From assembly GCA_020725545.1 (NCBI GenBank), contig DYEV01000006.1:1-41460 (forward strand): a DNA stretch of 41,460 bases. Reading direction: 5' to 3'. The notes under the pieces were generated by a model. It did no database searches, had not been told where the DNA came from, and saw only the letters and a program-made list of their open reading frames with translations. Of this stretch, positions 26,909-41,460 are shown in pieces. The position numbers were made by a program, and so were the translations under genes. The stretch comes from Desulfobacca sp. Its GTDB lineage: Bacteria; Desulfobacterota; Desulfobaccia; Desulfobaccales; Desulfobaccaceae. The number at the start of each line of letters is the position of its first letter. Positions within the stretch are counted from its first letter, which is position 1.

Positions 26909-27826
26909 TTAGCGTAGGATTTTGACTTTGATTTTCTCTGGGGTGACGGCGACGACTTCCAGGCCGGCGGGCACTTCGACGGCGATCTTGGCTTCATAAC
27001 TGCCGGGTTTCAGGTTTTTCAGGTTGATGCGGGGGGTAATCTCTTCGGGGCGGAGCAGTTCCAGATTGGTGGCCGGACCCCGAACGGTGACCGCGACTTT
27101 GGCTGGCTCGAGCTGGAGGGGGTTGCTGGCTCCATAAGGAACCACCACGATATTGGTAAACACTTTAGTCTGCAGTTTGGGACGGATAGTGATTTTGGCG
27201 ACGATGGGTTGGCTGTCCAACGAGGTCAGGGGCAGGTTCTGAAAATCCAGTTCCACCTCCCGGGTGACGGAGGAGCTGAGTTTGCTGATATCGATGGGGA
27301 TAGTGTTGATTTGCTTAAGTTGCTGAACGGCGTTTTGGGGGCCGCGCACCAGTGTTTCTTTGGGGGTGAGGGTAATGTCGCCGACCTCGAAGCCGGGGGC
27401 GGGAGAGCCTTTGATAACGGGCAGGACTTCCAGGCGGCGGGTAACGGCCTGATCCAATTCGATGGACAGGGCATTGGGGCGGATGCGGCTGATGACGACG
27501 CCGCGGGGAAAATTGAGGGCGCTGGGGGTGATCAATTCGTTGCGGGTGCCAGGTTTGCTGCCGGCCAGATCAATACGCAGCTGACGTTTGTCATCGGCGA
27601 GTTCGCGGATGACGCTGCGGGGGCCCTGGACGCGCACCTCGATCTGGGAGGGAATTTCGTTGGTAACCATGAGCTGCTTGGGGATATTGGTGAGCTCCAA
27701 GGCCATCTGCAGGGTGGTTTCGGTGCGTTCCTCGGAGCCGACCGCGAACCAGGCGGCCAGGGCTAAAATAAAGGCGAAGAGTTTAAGGCCCTTATTTTTT
27801 TTCAAAGAGGCGATATAATTTTTCAA
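26909..27826 (-). CDS. cdaR: YbbR-domain protein, CdaA regulator
   Basis: 305 residues. An N-terminal membrane anchor (LKLFAFILALAAWFAVG) is followed by repeated YbbR domains, with TNIPKQLMV-like strands near residue 45 and repeating near 130, 200 and 270. YbbR proteins sit outside the membrane and modulate the diadenylate cyclase CdaA. The start is TTG at 27826, with GGAGG 5 bases ahead. It overlaps cdaA by 35 bases, so the two are tightly coupled. In many bacteria glmM follows; here the gene is followed by a convergent terminator instead. Confidence 0.87.
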   Translation of the reverse strand: MKNYIASLKKNKGLKLFAFILALAAWFAVGSEERTETTLQMALELTNIPKQLMVTNEIPSQIEVRVQGPRSVIRELADDKRQLRIDLAGSKPGTRNELITPSALNFPRGVVISRIRPNALSIELDQAVTRRLEVLPVIKGSPAPGFEVGDITLTPKETLVRGPQNAVQQLKQINTIPIDISKLSSSVTREVELDFQNLPLTSLDSQPIVAKITIRPKLQTKVFTNIVVVPYGASNPLQLEPAKVAVTVRGPATNLELLRPEEITPRINLKNLKPGSYEAKIAVEVPAGLEVVAVTPEKIKVKILR

Positions 27827-28595
27827 GCCAGCCTCCGGTGGCGTTGCCTGTGTCGGTGAAAATTTCGTTCAGGGCATGCAGGAGTTGGGTGCGGCTCAGG
27901 TCAGTGGTCAACTTGCCTTCGCGGGCCAGCGAGATCCGGCCTTTTTCTTCGGAGATGATGATAGCCACGGCGTCGGAGTGTTCGGTGACGCCGATACCAG
28001 CCCGGTGCCGGGTGCCCAGGGATTTATCCAAGCCGGCTTGTTGGGTGAGGGGCAGGACGCAGCCGGCGGCCACGATCTGATCTCCGGAAATGATGACGGC
28101 GCCGTCATGAGTTGGGCTTTTGGGCCAGAAGAGTGTGACCAAGAGTTCTCGGGTGACCGAGGCGGCCAGGGGGATGCCGCTTTCCAGGTAATCCCGCAAT
28201 TTGCCGTGGCGACGCAAAACGAATAAGGCGCCGATTTTTTGGCTGGCCAAGGAATCGGCGGCCGCAGCGATTTCTTCCAATACTTGCGGTTCGCTGTAGC
28301 CATAACGGAAGACGGCCTGCCGGCCGACCCGACTGAGCATGCGGCGGATATCGGCCTGGAAGAGGATGATAATGATAAGCACCAGGCTTTTCACAAAACT
28401 TTCCAGGAACCATTCCAGGGTAAAGAGGTCCAGGCGCCGGGCACCCCAATAGGCCAGGAGTAGGATGAGGATGCCGGCTAATATCTGAATGCCTTGAGAG
28501 CCCCGCAATAGGAGCAGGAGCTGATAGATCAGGACGGCGGTCAGGAGAATATCAAGGGCATCCTGCCAGCGCAGGGGAAAAAATTCCATCACCAT
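27792..28595 (-). CDS. cdaA: diadenylate cyclase CdaA
   Basis: 267 residues, makes c-di-AMP from two ATP. Three N-terminal membrane helices (about residues 12-80) precede a DAC domain with the catalytic DGA motif at 164-166 (THDGAVII) and RHR at 196-198 (GTRHRAGIG). Length matches the CdaA class (about 270). c-di-AMP controls potassium and osmotic balance and cell-wall synthesis. It lies 30 bases after folP and overlaps cdaR. Confidence 0.95.
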   Translation of the reverse strand: MVMEFFPLRWQDALDILLTAVLIYQLLLLLRGSQGIQILAGILILLLAYWGARRLDLFTLEWFLESFVKSLVLIIIILFQADIRRMLSRVGRQAVFRYGYSEPQVLEEIAAAADSLASQKIGALFVLRRHGKLRDYLESGIPLAASVTRELLVTLFWPKSPTHDGAVIISGDQIVAAGCVLPLTQQAGLDKSLGTRHRAGIGVTEHSDAVAIIISEEKGRISLAREGKLTTDLSRTQLLHALNEIFTDTGNATGGWLEKLYRLFEKK

Positions 28596-28625
28596 GGGAA
28601 GTTGAGGACCGGCCGGGGTTGGGGT

Positions 28626-29519
28626 TTAGGTTGCCGCGCCGTGGAGCACGGCGGCCATGACCGCGGTCAGTTGTTTAGCCAAACCGATGTTATGGGTCCG
28701 GATAATTTGGGCCCCGTGGACGAGGCCGACGGCGATGGCGCCCAAGGTACCGATGTCGCGTTCGGTAACGGGGGCGTTCAGGAGATTGCCGATAAAGGCC
28801 TTGCGGGAGACCCCCAGCAAAAGAGGGCAACCCAGGTCGTGAAATTCGTTTAGGCGCCGGAGGAGTTCCAGATTGTGGGCCAGGTTTTTGCCGAAGCCGA
28901 TGCCCACGTCTAGGATAATATTCGTGGGAGAGATGCCCTGAGCCAGGGCAAAGTCACGGCGTTCGGTCAGGAAGGCCTTGACCTCGGCCACAACGTTGTC
29001 ATAATGCGGCGCCAGCTGCATGGTGCGGGGTTGACCTTGCATGTGCATGAGGACGACGGGGACGCCGGCGCTGGCGGCCACGTGGACCATCTGTGAGTCA
29101 AAACGCAAGGCACTGATATCATTGATGAGGTTCGCCCCGGCGTCGAGGGCGGCCTGGGCCACGGCGGCTTTGTAGGTATCGATGGAGATGGGAATATCGC
29201 TGTGCCGACGGATGGCCTGAATGAGGGGGATGACCCGCTGCAATTCTTCCTGGACGGAAACAGGATCGGCAAACGGGCGGGTAGATTCGCCGCCGATATC
29301 GAGGATATCAGCGCCGGCGGCGGCCAGTTGCAGGGCCTGGTCCAGGGCGGCTTGAGGCTCGAAAAAGAGGCCGCCGTCCGAAAAGGAATCGGGGGTGACA
29401 TTGACAATGCCCATGAGGATGGGGCTGCGGGTCAGCTCAAAGGTCCGGGGGCCAACAACCAGCGGTGCCAATGGAGGGGATGGGGTCATGAGGTTTCTGG
29501 TGTTCTTGGCGGTCGGCAT
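28626..29519 (-). CDS. folP: dihydropteroate synthase
   Basis: 297 residues; condenses p-aminobenzoate with hydroxymethyl-dihydropterin diphosphate in folate synthesis. Motifs are GIVNVTPDSFSDGG (diphosphate loop), DIGGESTRP, SIDTYKAAVA, LINDISAL and DVGIGFGK (pterin pocket). ATG 29519 follows the ftsH stop by 13 bases. The alternative ATG at 29489 would give 287 residues; neither has a clear ribosome site, which suggests translational coupling to ftsH. Confidence 0.95.
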   Translation of the reverse strand: MPTAKNTRNLMTPSPPLAPLVVGPRTFELTRSPILMGIVNVTPDSFSDGGLFFEPQAALDQALQLAAAGADILDIGGESTRPFADPVSVQEELQRVIPLIQAIRRHSDIPISIDTYKAAVAQAALDAGANLINDISALRFDSQMVHVAASAGVPVVLMHMQGQPRTMQLAPHYDNVVAEVKAFLTERRDFALAQGISPTNIILDVGIGFGKNLAHNLELLRRLNEFHDLGCPLLLGVSRKAFIGNLLNAPVTERDIGTLGAIAVGLVHGAQIIRTHNIGLAKQLTAVMAAVLHGAAT

Positions 29520-29532
29520 ACGGTACAGTGGC

Positions 29533-31407
<1,875 letters not shown>

Positions 31408-31444: not shown

Positions 31445-31616
31445 CTTTTATCATATTGTAAGACAGTTTGCAATAAAAGCAAGATTGGGGCAGAAAAACC
31501 AGGAATCTTGATAGTGATATCGTCTGGGGAGGGGAAAAACATGAGCCGGGAGCATTGGTTAACAGAGGTCAGAGGTGAGTGCTGATGGGTGCGTGGGGGG
31601 GCGGCAAAGGGCGGTC

Positions 31617-32534
31617 ATGAGCGGCGAACGGGAGAGGAAGATTTCCCGGGTGGTGATTTCCACGGCTTTGGGGTCGGGGGGGAAGGGGATTTTTCCGTAT
31701 ACTTTGCTGCCGTCGTACCATAGCCTGTTGAGAGTGGTGCGGGAAACTGGGACGACGGTATTGACCAAGTCGGCCACCCGTTGGCCGCGGCGGGGTAATT
31801 TTGTAGCTCACAATCCTTTGACGTGGCGATACATCCGGCGGCTGTCGGGGCAGGGCATGCTCAATGCCTATGGGTTAACCAATGCCGGAGTGGCCGCGTG
31901 TGCGAGGGAGATCAAGGAGAGCCTGGGGTTAGGCTTGCAGGTGATTCCCAATTTTTACCCGGAATTTGCCAAGGGGACGGAGGTGGCGATCCGGGAGACG
32001 CTGGAAAGTCTGAAAATTTATCAACAGACGCTGGGGGAGGATTTTTGGGCCGTGGAACTGAATTTTTCCTGTCCCAACTCCCGGGAGGCTATAGACCAAA
32101 ACGTGGCCCAGGGGATTGCCTGTGTGCGGCGGCTGCGCCGGGAGTTCCCGGGACTTTGGCTGATCGCCAAGCTCAGTTTAGTCCACCCCTATGAATTTGC
32201 CCAGGAGCTGGAGCAGTTGGGCATACAGGCGATTCATGGCGTAAACACCATTCCCTATGGGCTGGTGTTTCCTCCGGAGCGGTTTCCGCCGTCACCGTTG
32301 GTGGATGTGGGGGGAGGTGGGGTGTCAGGAGGTCCGGCCTGGCAAGCGGCCAGGAACTATAATGCCGGATTGCGGCAGGCAGTGCGGGTTTTTTTGATCA
32401 TGGGCTGCGGCATCAGCAGCGCCACAGATGTGCAGCACTATCTGGATTTGGGTGCAGATGCCGTCAGTGTGTGTACCATGGTCCTGCGGCAGCCGCGGGT
32501 GGCGGCCCAGGTGCTGGCTGCTCACAACCGGTGA
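31617..32534 (+). CDS. dihydroorotate dehydrogenase-like flavoprotein
   Basis: 305 residues, TIM-barrel FMN enzyme of the PyrD family. It has LTKSATRWPRRGNF (FMN-phosphate side Lys, as in KT-T-PR-GN), NAYGLTNAG and NFSCPNS (orotate-binding Asn; Cys in the base position as in class 1 enzymes), GVNTIPYG and the C-terminal FMN phosphate loop MGCGISSATD. These support oxidation of dihydroorotate in pyrimidine synthesis, but divergence from standard PyrD leaves another substrate possible. ATG 31617 has AAGGGCGG just ahead; a GTG at 31575 would add 14 residues of poor quality. It diverges from ftsH and ends at a strong terminator. Confidence 0.78.
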   Translation: MSGERERKISRVVISTALGSGGKGIFPYTLLPSYHSLLRVVRETGTTVLTKSATRWPRRGNFVAHNPLTWRYIRRLSGQGMLNAYGLTNAGVAACAREIKESLGLGLQVIPNFYPEFAKGTEVAIRETLESLKIYQQTLGEDFWAVELNFSCPNSREAIDQNVAQGIACVRRLRREFPGLWLIAKLSLVHPYEFAQELEQLGIQAIHGVNTIPYGLVFPPERFPPSPLVDVGGGGVSGGPAWQAARNYNAGLRQAVRVFLIMGCGISSATDVQHYLDLGADAVSVCTMVLRQPRVAAQVLAAHNR

Positions 32535-32559: not shown

Positions 32560-32590
32560 GCGGGCAGCGCCAAGGCTGCCCGCTTTTTTT
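32560..32590 (+). terminator. rho-independent terminator after the PyrD-like gene
   Basis: Perfect 9-bp arms GCGGGCAGC (32560-32568) and GCTGCCCGC (32575-32583), 6-base loop, then seven T. It reaches the last codons of the convergent small HTH gene. Confidence 0.92.
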
Positions 32591-32798
32591 AGGAGTCGTA
32601 ATCGCTTGGTAAATCAGCAAGTTGGAAAAGATTGACGATTGCTTCCCGGGGAACGCGCCAAGGTCTTTGGGCGAGGTCAACGCCGTCCAAACGGCCGTCT
32701 CGGATCATGCGGTAGACGGTGCGTTTGGTGATGAGCAAGAAGTCGGCCACCTCGTCGGGGCGGAAGAAGCGCTTATTGGGGAGGAATTCTATTGGCAT
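32589..32798 (-). CDS. small helix-turn-helix (excisionase/AlpA-type) DNA-binding protein
   Basis: 69 residues. The pattern RFFRPDEVADFLLITKRTVY followed by RMIRDGRLDGVDL is the HTH_17/excisionase fold: helix-turn-helix then a short beta wing. The ATG at 32798 is chosen because GGAGG lies 8 bases upstream and the protein then begins directly before the HTH. It is homologous to the two small HTH genes at 33374 and 33711 on the other strand. It may act as a regulator or directionality factor of the adjoining element, but the target is unknown. Confidence 0.72.
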   Translation of the reverse strand: MPIEFLPNKRFFRPDEVADFLLITKRTVYRMIRDGRLDGVDLAQRPWRVPREAIVNLFQLADLPSDYDS

Positions 32799-33136
32799 GA
32801 GCTTGCCCTCCTGATCTGCTTGGTTGTTTGCCAAGTGTTTAAAGCAAAAAGGGGACCAGCTGGCGCAGAGACGCCATGATAAGGGCGAGGTTTCTTCTGG
32901 GGATGCCTGGGAAGAGGTCCGAGAAGTACATATCATATAGAAATAAATCATCAATTAACTGAAGAAAGCGAAGCCAGGGGGGCGGGCGAAGCAGCTTGGC
33001 CCTTTTTTTTTGTGGGGGAGCGTGGGGTGGTTGGACTGCCGCGGCGGCGCCACGGGAAATCTTTCTAGAGATATTTAGGGGCCAGACGAAAAAAAATCTA
33101 GGGGAGAAGAAAAACTCTAGAACCGTTTATTTTGAG

Positions 33137-33253: not shown

Positions 33254-33373
33254 GAGCGCCCAGCGCCGGCCTTTGATTTGCCAATGTTTATGAGGCATCA
33301 GGGGGAGTTCAAAGGGGTTTTGGAACGGGATTTGAAATGGCCAAGGGGCAAAAGGTTCAAGGAGGACAAGATC

Positions 33374-33547
33374 ATGTTGGCAGAAAAATTGGTACGGCCT
33401 CGAGAAGTAGCCCGGCAGTTGGCGGTGTCCCGCTCCACCATTTACCGCTGGTTTTGGGAAGGGAAGCTGCGGGGGGTGAGGTTGAAGACCGGCAGTCTCA
33501 GGATTTTGGCCAGTTCGGTGGAGGAGATGGTGGGCGAGGTTTGGTAG
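33374..33547 (+). CDS. small helix-turn-helix protein, paralog 1
   Basis: 57 residues. LVRPREVARQLAVSRSTIYR, then WFWEGKLRGVRL, is an excisionase/HTH_17 domain occupying nearly the whole protein. ATG 33374 follows GGAGG by 8 bases; longer starts add an unlikely basic extension. It shares the rare phrase STxYRWFWEGKLxG with the gene at 33711, so the pair arose by duplication. The role is likely regulatory. Confidence 0.75.
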   Translation: MLAEKLVRPREVARQLAVSRSTIYRWFWEGKLRGVRLKTGSLRILASSVEEMVGEVW

Positions 33548-33710
33548 CCAGGTCGGAGAAGAGAGCTGCCTCCGAGGAAGAGGTAATGCCTGACCTAAAC
33601 AACTGGTTTGGCGTCAGTGGGGTTTGCAAGTGACAGATGGTGCAGGTGTTCTGGGAAAAAAGGGCCGGAAAAACTATATGAAAACAGCAAGAAGGGGAGG
33701 ATGGCATGGA

Positions 33711-33935
33711 ATGTCAAGCGGTAATGATGGAATGGCAGAGAGTGAAAGGGGGCAGGAGGCCATGCTGCAGAGAAGATTTGTGCGGCCCAGTGAAGTGGCG
33801 CAACTTTTGGGAGTATCCCGCTCAACGGTCTATCGGTGGTTCTGGGAGGGTAAACTCAAAGGGATCAAGTTTGGGGAAAAAAATATTAGAATTGCTGTAG
33901 ATTCGCTAGAAAAAATCATCTCGGAGTGCTGGTAA
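33711..33935 (+). CDS. small helix-turn-helix protein, paralog 2
   Basis: 74 residues from ATG 33711 (GGGGAGG 10 bases ahead), or 57 from ATG 33762. FVRPSEVAQLLGVSRSTVYR, then WFWEGKLKGIKF, is the same HTH fold as the preceding gene, with about half the residues identical by eye over the domain. From 33762 it would be the same length as paralog 1, which favours that start, although its Shine-Dalgarno is too close. Confidence 0.72.
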   Translation: MSSGNDGMAESERGQEAMLQRRFVRPSEVAQLLGVSRSTVYRWFWEGKLKGIKFGEKNIRIAVDSLEKIISECW

Positions 33936-34072: not shown

Positions 34073-34543
34073 ATGGACAAGGAAATTAGCAATAAGAAAA
34101 AGAGCAAGCGAGATTTATACTACGAAGAGGCGCAATCACTTTATGTCACAGGCATGAACTTATCGCAAATAGTCAAGATTCTGCCCGTAACGCGTCAGAC
34201 TCTGAGTAGTTGGAAGAGGCTTGGTCATTGGCAGAGGAAAAGGGAGCTGGTTACAGAGCACCCCCGGTTGATGAGTGAAGCATTGCGAGGGCTGGTGAAG
34301 CAGAAAGTGAAGGTCCTGTTGGACAACCAGGAGGACATAAGCCTCAGCACGGTGGATGAGCTCAATAAAATTATCAGTTTGATTGATCGATTGCAGGAAC
34401 AGTGCTGGGATGAGCGGGCAGCCATTGTCGAAGTGATGAGCCGGTTCGGCGATTTTGCCCGAAGGCAGGTGGGGGAAAAGAAGGAGCTGCAGTTATTGGC
34501 CCGATTGATGGAGAAGTTTTTTGAAGAAATGGAGGAGCCATAA
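34073..34543 (+). CDS. phage terminase small subunit-like protein (DUF1804/gp27-like)
   Basis: 156 residues. An N-terminal helix-turn-helix (EAQSLYVTGMNLSQIVKILP then VTRQTLSSWKRLGHWQRKR) resembles small terminase and DUF1804 proteins that recognise packaging sites. The rest is helical, with a charged C-terminus. The position directly before the large terminase supports the call. No clear ribosome site is present; GAG about 10 bases upstream is weak. Confidence 0.6.
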   Translation: MDKEISNKKKSKRDLYYEEAQSLYVTGMNLSQIVKILPVTRQTLSSWKRLGHWQRKRELVTEHPRLMSEALRGLVKQKVKVLLDNQEDISLSTVDELNKIISLIDRLQEQCWDERAAIVEVMSRFGDFARRQVGEKKELQLLARLMEKFFEEMEEP

Positions 34544-34759
34544 GGGCTGGTGGTCGTGCATCTTAAATTGGCCACGATGGTGCGAGAGGGTGGGATTGGC
34601 TGAGGCGGCTCATGTTGCCAGGCAAACCTGAGGGCACATGTTGTGAAGTTGGTATGTCACCTTCATTCTCTTGTCCTTGGAGCATTTTGGTAAAGCTTGG
34701 GACGGGAGCTCATGGCGGCAGAAGGTCAGAAAGTCGTGGGGAGCCGAGGGGGCTTGGTG
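34544..34759. other. 216-base spacer before the large terminase gene
   Basis: No gene or strong structure seen. In-frame starts for the terminase at 34697 (TTG) exist but lack a good ribosome site. Confidence 0.35.
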
Positions 34760-36325
34760 ATGAACATCCAGAGGAAAATGACCAAAAAAGATTTCCGCAG
34801 GAAGGCTGATGCGGTCCTGATAAATCTCAATATGGAGGTTTTGCCATTTGTTGATGACCAGGAAGGGAGTCAGACCGAGCGGCTGCGGCGGGCGGAAACG
34901 GATCCCTTATATTTTTGTCGGGTGTATCTGCCCCATTATTTCAATTTTCCTCCGGCTAGATTTCATCGGGAATTAATCCAACTCTTGGAGCGGAGGCCGG
35001 TGGGGACGGAGCCGGTGGGCAAAAGCACTCCGCAGAAGGATTGGGAAGCAGTGAAGCCGGTGGTGGTGGCGGCGCCCCGGGAGTTTGCCAAGACCACAGT
35101 CTGTACCTTCGGTTATGTGTTGCATCAGATCTGTTTCGGGAAGCGGCATTTTATTATTATTGGCAGCGATACGGAGGACTTAGCTAGTGATGTTACTGGC
35201 TATGTTTTTTTGGAATTGCTCTATAACGATCGTCTTCGCCAGGATTTTGGGGCATTGGTGAAAGGGACGAAGGCGGTTGATGATTTTGTGACCACCAATG
35301 ATGTGCGGGTTAAGGCCCGGGGGCGGGGACAGCGGCTGCGGGGTCTGAAGCATCGGCAGTGGCGTCCGGACTTAGTTATTCTGGATGATTTGGAAAATGA
35401 TCTCAACGTCCGGAACCCTGAAATTGTCCGGCAGATTTTGGAGTGGATCACCTCGGCGGTCTATCCGGCCATGGAGGCGAGTGGCAATCTTTTTATTATT
35501 GGGACAATTTTGCGTCGACGGAGCGCCCTGGATGTCATGTTGACGTCAGAGGAGGAGCCGTATTGTCATTTTACGCGGCGCATCTATCGGGCGATTACTC
35601 CGGAAGGCAGGTCTTTATGGGAGGCGAAGCATCCGGTGGCCAGGTTATTACGGCAGAAGCAGTTAATGGGCACGGTGGCGTTTAATTGCGAGAAGATGAA
35701 CGAGCCCGTGCAGGAATCGGGGATCTTTCGGCAGGAATGGATCCATTATTATCATCCGGACACGCTGAAGGACAAAGATTTAAGGGTGGCGGTCTTTTTT
35801 GATCCCTCCCTGGAGAGCGGCGCCACCGCGGATTACAAGGCGGTGGTAACGGTGGGGTTGGCGCCGCAGGAGATGGTTTTTTATGTGTTGGATGCCTTTA
35901 TTCAGAAGACCACTTTGGAAAAGGCGTTGTTGACCGTCTGCAACCGTTTTCGGGAGTACCGGCCGCAGATCATTGGGGTCGAGGACAATTTTTTCCAGCG
36001 CCTGCTTTTGAATGAATTTGAACGGATGGGCCGGGACCAAGGGGTGGCCTTGCCCATTAAAGGGGTGACGCATCGGGTGTCCAAGGAGGCCAGGATAAGC
36101 GCCTTGTCGCCGTTGCTGGAACGGGCCAAGATTCGATTCATCCGAGGTCATTCCGATCAGGAGTTGCTCATTGAGCAGATGCTGTATTTTCCCTCCCGGA
36201 CCATTCATGATGATGGCCCGGATGCCTTGGAGGGGGCCATTCGTTTGTTGCAAGCCATGAGCCGGATGGAGGTGGAATACCATTCGACCCAAGGTCGGCG
36301 TTTTGAAGGGAAAGGGGCGTATTGA
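34760..36325 (+). CDS. phage terminase large subunit
   Basis: 521 residues. The ATPase half has a deviant Walker A, VVVAAPREFAKTT, as in many Mu gp28-like terminases, and Walker B LVILDDLEND. The C-terminal RNase H-like nuclease has VFFDPSLE for the first acidic residue, IGVEDNFFQ and a final DDGPDALEG for the last. It packages DNA into the prohead. ATG 34760 has GAGGGGG 8 bases ahead; ATG 34775 is an alternative. It is separated by 18 bases from the next gene. Confidence 0.87.
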   Translation: MNIQRKMTKKDFRRKADAVLINLNMEVLPFVDDQEGSQTERLRRAETDPLYFCRVYLPHYFNFPPARFHRELIQLLERRPVGTEPVGKSTPQKDWEAVKPVVVAAPREFAKTTVCTFGYVLHQICFGKRHFIIIGSDTEDLASDVTGYVFLELLYNDRLRQDFGALVKGTKAVDDFVTTNDVRVKARGRGQRLRGLKHRQWRPDLVILDDLENDLNVRNPEIVRQILEWITSAVYPAMEASGNLFIIGTILRRRSALDVMLTSEEEPYCHFTRRIYRAITPEGRSLWEAKHPVARLLRQKQLMGTVAFNCEKMNEPVQESGIFRQEWIHYYHPDTLKDKDLRVAVFFDPSLESGATADYKAVVTVGLAPQEMVFYVLDAFIQKTTLEKALLTVCNRFREYRPQIIGVEDNFFQRLLLNEFERMGRDQGVALPIKGVTHRVSKEARISALSPLLERAKIRFIRGHSDQELLIEQMLYFPSRTIHDDGPDALEGAIRLLQAMSRMEVEYHSTQGRRFEGKGAY

Positions 36326-36343
36326 AAGAGAGAGGTGACGACA

Positions 36344-36925
36344 ATGTATGGCTGTCCAGAGGAAATATGGGCCGAGTTGGCTGAATTGCCGGGCGGTGCC
36401 CAAAGGATATGGCGGCGGGCGTTTTGGCGGGCTTGGCCGCAGGCGGGGGGCGATTGTGAACGGGCTGCAGCTTTGGCGTGGCAGGCTTTTGCGCTGGAGG
36501 CAAAAGGAGGTGGGGCAGATTCCTGGTTGATTAAGCAGGAGCGAACCGGCAATTTTCGGTTTGGCAAGGCCATTGGCGCCATATTGGCAAAGGTCACGAT
36601 TGGTTGGGGAGTTGTCAGAGCAGTCCTGGGGTTGAGGAGACGCCGGCAACGGGTTGCTGATGGCGGCGGTGCGACAGATACCGCCAAGGAAGGGCAGAAA
36701 GCTAACGGACGGGGGAGAATAGGGGTTTGTCAGGGGGATCTGGAGACGGTTTTCGCCGAGGCTGTAGCCAGAGGTTGGTTGAAACCGGAACAGCGGCCCT
36801 GGGCCGAGGCTTTGGCGAGGCGGGATGGGCAGTCCCTTCAGGAATTTTGTAATCTGGCCGCGGGGGCTGCGGAGTACCAGACAAGGCGGAATGCTTGGCG
36901 GCGCCAACGGGATGACATGACATGA
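36344..36925 (+). CDS. phage-encoded protein with ChaB-like N-terminal domain
   Basis: 193 residues. Residues about 12-55, LPGGAQRIWRRAFWRAWPQA then an AAALAWQAF helix, follow the ChaB pattern (LP-AQ-IY-AAF-NAW, then A-AWAA). The C-terminal third (VARGWLKPEQRPWAEALARR then DGQSLQEF) resembles the repeat-like tail of Mu gpI proteases. Function is unknown; ChaB-like proteins are found in some phages. GAGAGG is 8 bases before ATG 36344. It ends in ATGACATGA overlapping the portal start by four bases. Confidence 0.6.
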   Translation: MYGCPEEIWAELAELPGGAQRIWRRAFWRAWPQAGGDCERAAALAWQAFALEAKGGGADSWLIKQERTGNFRFGKAIGAILAKVTIGWGVVRAVLGLRRRRQRVADGGGATDTAKEGQKANGRGRIGVCQGDLETVFAEAVARGWLKPEQRPWAEALARRDGQSLQEFCNLAAGAAEYQTRRNAWRRQRDDMT

Positions 36926-38133
36926 CGAGCCCAGAATGGAACCGGATTGAACCGCAATGGGGGCGTCTTTACCCGGGTTCGGACCGGGAGCGCCACAGCA
37001 GCTATCCGAGTGCCGGGTTGACCCCGGGGAGATTGGCAGCGATTTTTCGGGCGGCGGATCAAGGGGATATTCGTGAGCAGATGGAGTTGTATGAAGAAAT
37101 GGAGGAAAAAGACGCCCATCTGGCTGCCATTCTGCAGACCCGCAAGGTTGCGGTCCAGGGTTTGGAATATCGTATTGTGCCGGCGGCCGCAACCGGGGAG
37201 GACAGAAGGATCGCAGATTTTGTCAGCGCGGTCCTCGCCCGGTTGGATTTCGATCAAATTATTATGAATATTTTGGACGCTTTGGGAAAGGGGTTTTCAG
37301 TCAATGAAATCATTTGGGGGGTGAGAGACAACCGGGTGGTGGTGGAGGCGGTGGAATGGATTAATCCCAAGCGGGTGAGTTTTATCCACGGGGAACAGCC
37401 GCAATTGATCAATCCGGATGGCTATACAGTGCTGACGCCGCCTCCCTGGAAACTGATCTTCCATCGCTGCCTTTTACGGTCGGGTGCGGTGGTCAGGGCA
37501 GGACTGCTGCGGGCGGTGGCTTGGGTGTATTTGTTCAAGAATTACGCATTAAAAGATTGGAATGTTTTCAATGAAGTTTTTGGCATGCCGCTGCGCTTGG
37601 GAAAATTTGACGCGGCAGCGACGCCGGAGGACCGGGAGATTTTGAGTCGGGCCATCCAATCGTTGGGATCGGATGCGGCGGCGATTATTTCGAAAAATAC
37701 GGAAATTGAGTTTGTGGAGGCGCCCGGCCGCGGCGGCCAGGAGAATCCATTCATGGCGATGGCTGAATTTTGCAACCGGGAGATGAGCAAGGCGATTCTG
37801 GGGCAGACGTTGACCACGGATGTGTATCGGGCCACCGGGACTTACAGCGCGGCGCGGGTCCATCACGAGGTCCGCCGGGATATTGTGCAATCGGATGCAG
37901 ATAGTCTGGCGGCAACGCTGCAAGGGCAATTGTTGCGGCCATTAGTGGGGTTTAATTTCGGCTGGGACCGCAGCCTGCCGGTTTTCCAGTTTTATGCAGA
38001 AGAGGATGTGAATTTGCGGGAAATGGCAGAGACGTATGAAAAGTTAATGGCCATGGGGGTTCGGATTCCGCCGGACCATATTGCGGAGGTCTTTCATCTC
38101 CCGCGGGTGAAGGGTACGGAGCAGGATACATGA
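36922..38133 (+). CDS. phage portal protein, DUF935 (Mu gp29-type)
   Basis: 403 residues, shorter than Mu gp29 (about 510). It carries the DUF935 marks LYEEMEEKDAHLAAILQTRK near residues 55-75, then VAVQGLEYRI, ALGKGFSVNEIIW, KDWNVFNEVFGMPLRLGKF and a late RRDIVQSDADSLAATLQ. It forms the ring through which DNA enters the head. It overlaps the preceding gene and the protease gene (ATGA at 38130-38133), so three genes are translationally coupled. Confidence 0.92.
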   Translation: MTSPEWNRIEPQWGRLYPGSDRERHSSYPSAGLTPGRLAAIFRAADQGDIREQMELYEEMEEKDAHLAAILQTRKVAVQGLEYRIVPAAATGEDRRIADFVSAVLARLDFDQIIMNILDALGKGFSVNEIIWGVRDNRVVVEAVEWINPKRVSFIHGEQPQLINPDGYTVLTPPPWKLIFHRCLLRSGAVVRAGLLRAVAWVYLFKNYALKDWNVFNEVFGMPLRLGKFDAAATPEDREILSRAIQSLGSDAAAIISKNTEIEFVEAPGRGGQENPFMAMAEFCNREMSKAILGQTLTTDVYRATGTYSAARVHHEVRRDIVQSDADSLAATLQGQLLRPLVGFNFGWDRSLPVFQFYAEEDVNLREMAETYEKLMAMGVRIPPDHIAEVFHLPRVKGTEQDT

Positions 38134-39209
38134 AGGGGGTGTTGTATTGCCAATTGGGTGAACAGGTACCGGAGGTTATTCGCCTGTTGCCCTTGGGAGA
38201 GGTGGCGTTGGCGGATGGCCGCCAACCTTTTCAGGTGACCCAGGAGTCTTTGGAGCAGATTCTGGCTTCCTGGCGGCGTCGGGGCCACGATTTGGTGATT
38301 GATTATGAACACCAGAGTCTGAGCGGCCGAGAGGCGCCGGCGGCCGGGTGGATCAAGGAGTTGTGGGTCGGTGGGGATGGCTTATATGCCCGGGTGGCCT
38401 GGACGGAGCGGGCCAGGAGCTATATTGCCAAGAAGGAATATCGTTATTTTTCACCAGTGGTGCAGTTAAATGAGGGTAGAGAGGTTACGGATCTTTTGCA
38501 GGTGGCCTTGACGAATTGTCCGGCCATGAGTCAATTGGAGCCGCTGGTGTTGCAACAGCGTTGGCCGGAGGAGGAAGGCACCAACGGCGGGCAAGGATTG
38601 CCGGGCGGCATGGCCGCGGGCGGGCTGAATGGACGTCGGAAAGGGGAAACGAATGGCACGGGAGGGCAAATGATCGAGAGGTTGCGGACGATTTTTGGCC
38701 TGGAAGAGGAAGCCGGGGAAGCCGAAATCTTGGCGAGGGCCATTGCTCTGATGCAGCGCCAGGAGGAAGGGAGATGGGAGGCGCCGGAGGAAATTCTTAC
38801 GATGCTGGGTTTGGAGCAGGGTTATGCGGGCCGAGAGTTGGTCGAGAAGGTGACGGCGCTCCAAAGCGAAGCTGAGACTTTGCGGCAAGAGCTGGCAGTT
38901 CTGCGGGAAGAGCACGCGGCGGAGAAGGCGGAACGTTTGATCCAGGAAGCCCTGATCATGAAGAAGACGACGCCGGCGGAGCTGGATCAGGGAGACGGCC
39001 GCTTGCGGCGTTTGGCCAAGGATGATCCGGAATTTTTCCGGGCGCTGATTCTGAGTCGGCGGGAGAACTGGGCGGTACCGGGGAGGTTGTTTCAGGCCGA
39101 AGCGTCCGGTCCGGCTCTTGGTCCTGAGGAGTTGAAGATGTGTGAGGCCTTTGGCCTGTCATCGGAGGCATTTTTACAAAAACGGCGACAATTAGAGCAA
39201 GGGGAGTAA
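38130..39209 (+). CDS. phage prohead protease/scaffold (Mu gpI-type)
   Basis: 359 residues. The N-terminal protease part has VIDYEHQSLSGREAPAAGWI and EYRYFSPVVQLN, typical of the gpI family in which DYEH and SP residues lie at the active site. The C-terminal half is a helical scaffold (VEKVTALQSEAETLRQELAV then AVLREEHAAEKAERL), rich in charged heptads. It is expected to shape and then process the capsid shell. It starts in ATGA overlap with the portal and ends 2 bases before the next gene. Confidence 0.88.
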   Translation: MKGVLYCQLGEQVPEVIRLLPLGEVALADGRQPFQVTQESLEQILASWRRRGHDLVIDYEHQSLSGREAPAAGWIKELWVGGDGLYARVAWTERARSYIAKKEYRYFSPVVQLNEGREVTDLLQVALTNCPAMSQLEPLVLQQRWPEEEGTNGGQGLPGGMAAGGLNGRRKGETNGTGGQMIERLRTIFGLEEEAGEAEILARAIALMQRQEEGRWEAPEEILTMLGLEQGYAGRELVEKVTALQSEAETLRQELAVLREEHAAEKAERLIQEALIMKKTTPAELDQGDGRLRRLAKDDPEFFRALILSRRENWAVPGRLFQAEASGPALGPEELKMCEAFGLSSEAFLQKRRQLEQGE

Positions 39210-39211
39210 CG

Positions 39212-39610
39212 ATGGCAGCATGTACGACGGATCGCAATACACCATATCGGGAAGGGATTGAACTGGATTTTCCGGTGAAGGGGAGTACCCGCATTTTTGC
39301 CGGCGCCATGGTGGCGGTGGATGGCAGCGGCTATGCGGTGCCGGCTGGCAATACGGCCGGGCACCGGTTTGTGGGGGTGGCCATGGAACGGGTGGATAAC
39401 ACGGCGGGAACGGATGGCGCCGCCCTGGTGCGGGTGAGGACCTCTGGAGTGTTTGAATTCGGCGCCACCTCCATTGCCCAGGCCAATGTGGGCGCAGAGA
39501 TGTATGTGGTGGACGACCAGACGTTCGATGATGTCAATCCCGGGCAGGGGATCAAATGTGGCAGACTGGTGAAATACGTTTCGGCAACCAAGGGTTGGAT
39601 CAAAATTTAG
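39212..39610 (+). CDS. phage head decoration-type protein (DUF2190-like)
   Basis: 132 residues, mostly beta. IFAGAMVAVDGSGYAVPAGN, FVGVAMERVDNTAG and YVVDDQTFDDVNPGQGIKCG give the strand-turn pattern of DUF2190 and capsid decoration proteins found beside capsid genes. AAGGGGAG lies ahead of the ATG. The short distance on both sides (2 and 14 bases) supports one transcript. The assignment is by position and fold style. Confidence 0.68.
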   Translation: MAACTTDRNTPYREGIELDFPVKGSTRIFAGAMVAVDGSGYAVPAGNTAGHRFVGVAMERVDNTAGTDGAALVRVRTSGVFEFGATSIAQANVGAEMYVVDDQTFDDVNPGQGIKCGRLVKYVSATKGWIKI

Positions 39611-39624
39611 GGGAGTAGACAGGA

Positions 39625-40521
39625 ATGATCATTAATCAGGCAAATCTCGCAAACATGTATGTGGCTTTAAATACTATTTTTAATGCGGCCTTTGAGGGGG
39701 CGCCCAGTTTCCATGAACAGATCGCCATGGTGGTGCCAAGTAGCGGTCGGGCCAATGATTATACCTTCATGCTCCAATTTCCCATGCTGCAGGAATGGAT
39801 CGGAGATCGGCAGATCAAGAATCTGGCGGCTTCCAGCTTTCAGATTGTCAACAAGGACTACGAGGCCACGGTGGAAGTGGACCGGAATGATATTGAGGAT
39901 GACCAGTTGGGCATTTACAACCCGATCGTTGCGGAATTGGGGCGAGCGGCGAAACAGCATCCTGACCTTCTGGTGGCTAAACTTTTAGCGGATGGGTTCA
40001 CCAATACCTGTTACGACGGCAAGCCGTTTTTTGCGGTGGATCATCCGGTAGGAGCGGGGGTGCAAAGCAATTTTGGCGGTGGCAGCGCTACGGCCTGGTA
40101 TCTGTTGGACACCACCCGGGCTATTCGGCCGTTCATTTTCCAGCGGCGTTCCAAACCGCAATTGGTCCGGCAGGATCGTCCTGATGAGGAACAGGTGTTT
40201 ATGCGCCGGAAGTTTCGGTATGGCGTAGATTATCGGGGGGCGGCCGGATACGGCCTGTGGCAGCTGTCCTATGCCAGCAAACAAACGTTGAATGCGGCAA
40301 ATTACGCGGCGGCGCGGACGGCGATGATGGCCTTGAAGAATGAAGCGGGCGTGCCCTTGGGGATTCGACCTTCGGTATTGGTGGTGCCGCCTTCTCTGGA
40401 GACCCAGGCCAAAGAAATCTTGCAGGCCGAAATGGTGTTGGCAGACCCCGTCAGTGGGGGGACAAAGACGAACATTTGGCGGGGGACGGCGGATCTCTTG
40501 GTGGTGCCGTGGCTGGAATAG
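39625..40521 (+). CDS. phage major head protein (Mu gpT-type)
   Basis: 298 residues with the Mup T features: an LNTIFNAAFEGAPSF N-terminus, MLQEWIGDRQIKNLAASSFQ, IVNKDYEATVEVDRNDIEDD, GKPFFAVDHPV in the middle, and VVPPSLETQAKEIL near the C-terminus. It forms the HK97-like shell. GGGGAG lies 9-10 bases before the ATG. Confidence 0.93.
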   Translation: MIINQANLANMYVALNTIFNAAFEGAPSFHEQIAMVVPSSGRANDYTFMLQFPMLQEWIGDRQIKNLAASSFQIVNKDYEATVEVDRNDIEDDQLGIYNPIVAELGRAAKQHPDLLVAKLLADGFTNTCYDGKPFFAVDHPVGAGVQSNFGGGSATAWYLLDTTRAIRPFIFQRRSKPQLVRQDRPDEEQVFMRRKFRYGVDYRGAAGYGLWQLSYASKQTLNAANYAAARTAMMALKNEAGVPLGIRPSVLVVPPSLETQAKEILQAEMVLADPVSGGTKTNIWRGTADLLVVPWLE

Positions 40522-40658
40522 TTGAGACGCATTGAACAACGGGCCGTGAGAGGTAAGACGAGGGTGGCGGGTGGGAATGGTCGGTTGCCGAGCCGTGAGC
40601 GTCAGTGCTTAGGATGGTCACGCTTTTGGCAGCACAATGAGAAAGGGGGTGAGGCGAG

Positions 40659-40862
40659 ATGCTGGCATTTCTCAACGGCAAAAGGACATATTTGGTCGCC
40701 GCAGTGATGATCGTGGTGGCAGTTCTTAAAGCGATGGGTGTTATTGAAGCGTCGACCTATGAGGCGGTGATGGGGCTGTTGGCGGCGCTGGGGTTTGGAG
40801 CCCTGCGGGCTGGTGTGGAGAGAGCCGCAGGTGAAATACAAGGGGCGACCAAGAAGCTCTGA
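40659..40862 (+). CDS. small membrane protein, holin-like
   Basis: 67 residues with one clear transmembrane helix (YLVAAVMIVVAVLKAMGVI) and a second amphipathic or membrane segment (GLLAALGFGALRAGVERA), plus a basic C-terminus. It lies just before an endolysin, so a holin role is inferred. GGGGGTGAGG precedes the ATG. The 137 bases before it contain no credible gene. Confidence 0.65.
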   Translation: MLAFLNGKRTYLVAAVMIVVAVLKAMGVIEASTYEAVMGLLAALGFGALRAGVERAAGEIQGATKKL

Positions 40863-40978
40863 GAGTCGACTCGTGAATCAGAAGAGGGATGAGTTGGTGG
40901 GAGAGAAGTGGGAGAGCGGTAAGAGGGCATTGGTCAGAGTTGAGAAATGCTGGATCCAGAGTTGGAGGTGAGAGCAGT

Positions 40979-41460
40979 ATGTATCAGATCAAGAATCATC
41001 TTCTGTATAAGAATGGCCAGAGAGTATCTTATAAACTTTCTCCAAATCATGGCAAGGTTATTAGACCGGAGATAATCGTTCTGCATTACACCGGCAGTAA
41101 TAGTCTGCAAGGGGCATTGAATTGGCTCTGTAACCCTGGGTCACAGGTTAGTGCTCATTTAGTTATTGCCAAGACCGGTCAGGTCTGGCAGCTCATGCCA
41201 TTTAATCTCCGGGCCTGGCATGCGGGAAAAAGTGAATATGACGGCCGCCCGGATGTGAACAGCTTCAGTATTGGCATTGAGAATGTGGGTTTGGGGGATG
41301 AATGGCCCGAGGCCCAGATCGAGGCGAACCGGCTGATCATTGCGGCCCTGTATGACGCCTATGATATCCAGGATACGGTGGGCCACAGTGATATCTGTGT
41401 CCCGGTGGGGCGCAAAGCTGATCCGGGGCCGAAATACCCTTGGGAAAGGGTCTTAAAAGA
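40979..41460 (+). CDS. N-acetylmuramoyl-L-alanine amidase (endolysin), truncated by window edge
   Basis: 160 residues visible; the frame runs off the right edge. Amidase_2 fold with zinc ligands H36 (VLHYTGS), H136 (VGHSDI) and D148 (KADPGP), and the catalytic-region glutamate E101 (SIGIENVG). NPGSQVSAHLVIAKTGQVWQ and FNLRAWHAG match phage-type peptidoglycan amidases. It would cut the bond between muramic acid and the stem peptide in lysis. GGAGG lies 10 bases before the ATG. It has a lower GC start than its neighbours. Confidence 0.9.
   Translation, partial: MYQIKNHLLYKNGQRVSYKLSPNHGKVIRPEIIVLHYTGSNSLQGALNWLCNPGSQVSAHLVIAKTGQVWQLMPFNLRAWHAGKSEYDGRPDVNSFSIGIENVGLGDEWPEAQIEANRLIIAALYDAYDIQDTVGHSDICVPVGRKADPGPKYPWERVLK

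Follow-up and report, generated by a model that had tools for sequence, protein, structure and literature searches.

A Mu-type phage head module beside ftsH in Desulfobacca is probably the left end of a vertically inherited, gene transfer agent-like element of the Desulfobaccales

Contig DYEV01000006.1 of a Desulfobacca assembly, analysed here over its entire 41,460 b and called the window (contig C28 of source genome G000), ends in a run of Mu-type phage head genes followed directly by lysis genes, with no MuF gene. Does this run belong to an ordinary prophage, or is it, as an initial annotation made from the sequence alone had proposed, either a new branch of Mu-like phages or a domesticated particle resembling a gene transfer agent (GTA)? 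The module is not private to the window genome; it is order-wide. We consider it probable that it forms the left end of an immobile, vertically inherited GTA-like element of Mu-type siphophage ancestry, which is tail-reduced in Desulfobacca.

The order Desulfobaccales was sampled with 29 genomes, representing 29 species, 11 genera and two families (f1 and the larger f2). These include the complete genome of Desulfobacca acetoxidans (G003, a single contig of 3,282,536 bases), from the same genus as the window source. The module, a fragment of it or a deletion scar was present in all 29, and relatives of the window capsid were found in most genomes of the order and in few outside it. A 431-amino-acid (aa) protein, the probable tail tube, is encoded in single copy in 22 of the 29 genomes and, outside the order, in one of about 376 genomes of the phylum that were searched; no match was obtained among 50,697 phage records, and IMG/VR yielded one short contig. 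The sole tube homologue found outside the order (G187:C52:13044-14315; phylum sample of 395 genomes) lies off the ftsH contig and is not accompanied by p560, a further protein of the element. The matches to the large terminase (TerL) in IMG/VR (L268-L270), considered as relatives of the element, were rejected as other phages with different next genes.

The element adjoins ftsH in 11 genomes from both families (G000, G003, G004, G006, G007, G008, G012, G016, G017, G026 and G028), with folP and cdaA mostly next in line. Flank homologues adjoin it in G003, G004, G006, G007, G008, G012, G017 and G028, while ftsH alone was seen in G016 and G026. Synteny at one site had been named beforehand as a sign of a GTA; it was observed across species of the order rather than strains, with four exceptions that are weighed below. 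In G009 and G013, which belong to one genus, scars lie beside ftsH and only the 3' end of p1392, the hub gene, remains. In G013, a helix-turn-helix (HTH) gene found left of the terminase elsewhere (homologue of window 33624..33935) runs on in frame into the C-terminal part of hub/p1392, and the gene right of the scar shares 93% identity with its counterpart in G008, the undeleted sister. The two scars are internal deletions and do not reflect the excision of a mobile element. Flanking repeats were absent at four of five loci, the fifth having a 25-base low-complexity repeat, and no tRNA or Rfam features were found at the site.

A host tree (FtsH and FolP) and an element tree (TerL, portal, decoration protein and capsid) have 14 of 19 splits in common, and most conflicts are weakly supported. 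The well-supported ones concern G019 with G020 and G028 (host support 97), G000 with G002 (host 96) and the G008 group (element 96). The distances of 11 element gene families correlated with those of FtsH at r 0.70-0.93, with none of 2000 shuffles as high. Similarly, in close pairs of family f2 the synonymous divergence (dS) of element genes stays near the values for ftsH and folP: between G012 and G014 it is 0.44 for FtsH and 0.42 for FolP, as against 0.38 for TerL, 0.38 for the portal, 0.44 for the capsid, 0.42 for the tube, 0.48 for p1392 and 0.46 for p393. In close pairs, omega of the element genes is mostly 0.05-0.33, indicating purifying selection. Vertical transmission, one mark of a GTA, is thus seen in the shared locus, the trees and the distances, with dS agreement in f2 and not in Desulfobacca.

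MuF (PF04233) had no match on any contig carrying the locus in the order genomes, nor anywhere in G000, and its absence, noted in the initial annotation, is a lineage trait of the locus. No Mu transposase, integrase or replication gene was recognised among the locus genes scanned, some accessory open reading frames (ORFs) lying outside the scan. Two of the 29 order genomes contain the Mu transposase C-domain (PF09299), in both cases away from the contigs that carry the element; it is absent from the whole of G000. Of the features of a Mu-like phage, the window has the DUF935 portal, gpI protease and gpT capsid, and lacks the MuA-type transposase and MuF. The proposed new branch of Mu-like phages therefore survives as ancestry, but the locus, without recognised mobility genes, behaves as a fixed host locus. 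True Mu-like prophage relatives do occur in the same order. In G027:C264, MuF lies between portal and protease. A second, phage-like relative in G028 (G028:C3:60001-78833, L086) encodes a 1007-aa tape measure and has its hub/p1392 gene broken by a stop; this copy is apparently decaying.

The following features were assigned in the window:

26909..31407, minus strand: left host flank ybbR, cdaA, folP and ftsH; homologues adjoin the element in relatives of both families
31575..32534, plus strand: host gene resembling dihydroorotate dehydrogenase, located between ftsH and the element (62% identical to its D. acetoxidans counterpart at the same position)
32589..32954, minus strand: HTH1, a small MerR/excisionase-like regulator, divergent from the element
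33278..33547, plus strand: small HTH (excisionase-like) protein (88% identity over 57 aa to the G003 homologue)
33624..33935, plus strand: second small HTH_17 (excisionase-like) protein (PF12728, 1e-12)
34073..34543, plus strand: probable small terminase (TerS-like) with N-terminal HTH (phrog_4151, 6e-13; homologues in 18 loci)
34697..36325, plus strand: TerL (phrog_38, 1.7e-91)
36335..36925, plus strand: ChaB-like protein (PF06150, 7.8e-5, below cut-off)
36922..38133, plus strand: Mu-type portal (PF06074, DUF935, 5e-105)
38130..39209, plus strand: gpI-type head maturation protease/scaffold (PF10123, 1e-68)
39212..39610, plus strand: head decoration protein (phrog_1731, 1e-34)
39625..40521, plus strand: gpT major capsid (PF10124, 4e-120)
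40659..40862, plus strand: holin-like small membrane protein in a variable slot after the capsid (phrog_1299, 0.07, weak)
40889..41460, plus strand: N-acetylmuramoyl-L-alanine amidase, cut by the contig end (PF01510, 2e-31)

The gene order given in the initial annotation, from TerS to amidase, was borne out by profile matches, the ChaB-like match being sub-cut-off and the holin match weak. Internal stop codons, which would have told against a particle, were absent from the head genes, and all their frames are open. Five of nine members of the TerS family match PF10668 (Phage_terminase, best 1e-5), with weak but repeated matches to an HTH-like segment at the N-terminus. In TerL, the motifs PREFAK, LDD and DDGPDAL are invariant across 18 species, and ATPase and nuclease motifs are retained. 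Even loci that have lost the element retain HTH1. To the left of HTH1, nine genomes from the two families encode a CheY-like response regulator (L181, L183, L082, L258, L092, L257, L165, L191 and L168; between-family identity about 45-60%). The window and G003 have the dihydroorotate dehydrogenase gene in its place, and it was in these two genomes that this gene was seen between ftsH and the element. Candidate regulators of the element are this conserved response regulator, lying between ftsH and HTH1, and the small HTH genes. In a promoter and terminator scan, predictions were about as numerous as in shuffled sequence.

A fuller set of genes is found in other genera: TerS, TerL, portal, protease, decoration protein, capsid, a small protein, gp36, gp37, the 431-aa probable tube, two small proteins in the tail-chaperone position, a tape measure, the 121-aa gp37b, p560, p1392 and usually p393. 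Neck and tail-tip proteins are thus among the products of complete copies. The Caudoviricete-type head, packaging and tail genes of a GTA are present in other genera, the window itself holding head and lysis genes only. The tape measure at the locus has 246-280 aa, compared with 1007 aa in the prophage relative of G028. The slot between capsid and gp36 is variable: G000 and G002 fill it with a holin-like gene and an amidase gene, G008, G010 and G017 have a holin-like gene there, G012, G014, G022 and G028 have fibre-like genes, and G003 has a spike-like gene. The small proteins of G002, G008, G010 and G017 resemble the window's holin-like ORF, and the window amidase is 64% identical to the G002 amidase at the equivalent position. 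Lysis genes after the capsid, pointed out in the initial annotation, are thus a real arrangement, but one filling of this slot rather than a fixed trait.

The right end of the window falls inside the last codons of the amidase gene, so the absence of tail genes cannot be deduced from the window, and the "reduced" module of the initial annotation was in part simply cut off. The last 160 bases had no match at any other contig end of the G000 assembly, and the contig ends read in G000 (without the far ends of C21 and C22) showed no continuation into tail genes or the D. acetoxidans right flank. Searches of the whole G000 assembly found neither tube nor hub, and for p560 gave only a 33-residue match at chance level; G000 lacks these genes either by loss or through an assembly gap. 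Many assemblies break inside the element, often near gp37 or in p1392 (window:41458-41460, G002, G004, G005, G006, G015, G016, G018, G022 and G023), a pattern as expected from strain variation or repeats in tail genes.

The complete D. acetoxidans genome carries its module at the window-equivalent site, right of ftsH and the dihydroorotate dehydrogenase gene. After the capsid come a spike-like protein, gp36, a gp37-like protein, a 560-aa protein, a 1392-aa LamG protein, a 393-aa protein and then host genes. The tube protein had no match in any of the four Desulfobacca genomes. In other genera, gp37 and gp37b lie on either side of a block that holds the tube gene, two small genes and the tape measure gene; in G003 a single open frame joins gp37, as its N-terminal part, to gp37b, as its C-terminal part, and G002 has the same frame as far as its contig reaches. 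An in-frame deletion would be the simplest account of this fusion, and the Desulfobacca particle would be either tube-less or on its way to loss.

Intact copies keep the genes required for assembling a tailed particle that packages DNA, without MuF or any recognised integration or transposition gene, and the likely job of the element is therefore to make a GTA-like particle. The invariant terminase motifs and the selection on packaging genes make DNA packaging likely, and the lack of mobility genes suggests, by likeness to GTAs, that the packaged DNA would be mainly host DNA. We propose that a Mu-like siphophage-type prophage was captured beside ftsH before the split of the order's two families, became immobilised and was then inherited with the chromosome. 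A small fraction of cells would express the element, package chromosomal DNA into heads and then lyse, setting free particles that may transfer this DNA, all of which we infer from gene content and conservation. In Desulfobacca, the tube, the chaperone-position genes and the tape measure have been deleted, and gp37 is fused to a distal tail protein. The domesticated GTA-like particle of the initial annotation gains support from the single-site synteny and from the agreement of trees and dS with the host. That we are dealing with an independently domesticated GTA lineage across the Desulfobaccales, of Mu-like siphophage ancestry, whose Desulfobacca particle was made tube-less by block deletion and gp37 fusion, seems plausible, if somewhat short of probable.

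Several observations weigh against this reading. The tube was assigned by its place in the gene order together with a weak PHROG match (4e-5); no homology was found with the tubes of the phages RS1 (by profile comparison) and Fc22, and no solved structure matched the tube profile. The tube protein is missing from G000, G002 and the complete G003 genome, so that G003, at least, cannot form a normal tail. The module lies at other sites in G002, G010 and G015, and in G022 the flank has changed, with only the adjacent response-regulator neighbour retained. Among the element's genes, correlation with the host is weakest for TerL, and the capsid tree does not unite the two genera of family f1. In Desulfobacca, the dS of head genes is above that of host genes (two capsid comparisons were saturated), which means that phage recombination with some replacement, or faster change, occurred in that genus. 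Finally, the element's TerS keeps a possible DNA-binding HTH, unlike known GTAs, whose small terminase lacks a DNA-binding domain as a common trait, not a formal criterion (PMC11841831); packaging may accordingly be less random.

Could ordinary Mu-like prophages have infected the order repeatedly, favouring one site, so that the vertical look merely reflects host range? The true prophages in G027:C264, with its MuF, and G028:C3, with its full-length tape measure, as well as the three loci away from ftsH and the diverged Desulfobacca head genes, would fit such a history. We regard it as distinctly unlikely, and in family f2 it is largely refuted, dS there being equal to that of neighbouring host genes. 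Most splits are common to both trees, and the locus itself is without transposase or MuF, a transposase occurring in only two order genomes. Moreover, no clear attachment-site repeats were found, and the scars are internal deletions rather than precise excisions. A non-functional prophage remnant, persisting through slow decay on its way out, is also unlikely: across the whole order, structural genes have open frames and a low omega, the terminase motifs are conserved and the element is present in all species examined, even though it was deleted in G009 and G013, the tube was deleted in G003 and, judging by the fused gene, in G002, and the hub gene is broken in the phage-like G028 copy.

Domestication for a use other than transfer (self-lysis, kin killing or protein delivery) would suit the sharing of one slot after the capsid by variable fibre and lysis genes, and the tube-less Desulfobacca form would inject DNA poorly. 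Orphan protease-capsid pairs further suggest that capsid parts have been re-used in the order. Against this, TerL and portal, which are packaging genes, are under purifying selection, and tailocins are not known to have heads; we judge this use quite improbable. The orphan pairs consist of protease/scaffold and gpT capsid, lack terminase, portal and tail genes, and lie close to glycosyltransferase, exosortase-like or other polysaccharide genes:

G008:C12:40407-41288 (L084/L085)
G013:C15 (L256:2-2212)
G017:C12 (L255:7727-10308)
G018:C91 (L188)
G020:C238 (L261:2224-4514)
G003:C1:2455438-2456325 (L080), scaffold part only

Five orphan capsids form one clade (support 100), inside which capsid omega is 0.13-0.41, and the pairs possibly represent a capsid-based compartment.

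If the GTA-like reading is true, cells of these species may exchange DNA by means of virus-like particles built from the element. With an order-wide element in sulfate reducers and a sequenced type strain, particle production and host-DNA cargo become testable. The stepwise series from a full-length tape measure in phages through a short one in the element to none in Desulfobacca, with whole-module scars in one genus, would give a rare view of a domesticated phage shortening and losing its tail.

No description of this locus was found in the literature searched. The 2011 genome paper on D. acetoxidans (PMC3156406) never uses the word "phage", and a survey of prophages in sulfate reducers from 2021 lists the D. 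acetoxidans strain as poly-lysogenic, with no mention of GTAs. Five genetically distinct GTA types have been counted (PMC11409702). Dd1 of Desulfovibrio desulfuricans is a GTA of another sulfate reducer, from the former Deltaproteobacteria (PMC11409702). With the Mu-like siphophages RS1 (Rhodovulum), RC1 (Rhodobacter) and Fc22 (Pseudomonas), the element shares gpI, decoration protein, gpT, neck, tube position, the two small genes and the tape measure, and its capsid is 44-48% identical to theirs. From coordinates, the tape measure has about 1231 aa in RS1 and about 1210 aa in Fc22, compared with 246-280 aa in the element. Fc22 encodes a transposase and a repressor, and its lysis genes precede the head genes, whereas the element has neither transposase nor repressor at the locus and carries lysis or fibre genes after the capsid. 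The G027:C264 prophage has homologues of the portal, protease, decoration-like protein and capsid, and differs in its MuF between portal and protease and in its 345-aa decoration protein. RcGTA (Rhodogtaviriformidae) has a short tape measure and a short tail, like that of the Desulfobaccales element. RcGTA is inherited vertically as a head-tail cluster that evolves with its host and has no integration or replication genes (PMC9662315, PMC11841831); the element is alike in this, no such genes having been recognised at its locus. It is set apart from RcGTA by its phage ancestry, with a portal (DUF935), protease (gpI) and capsid (gpT) of Mu-type Pfam families, by its host phylum and by a TerS with a possible HTH.

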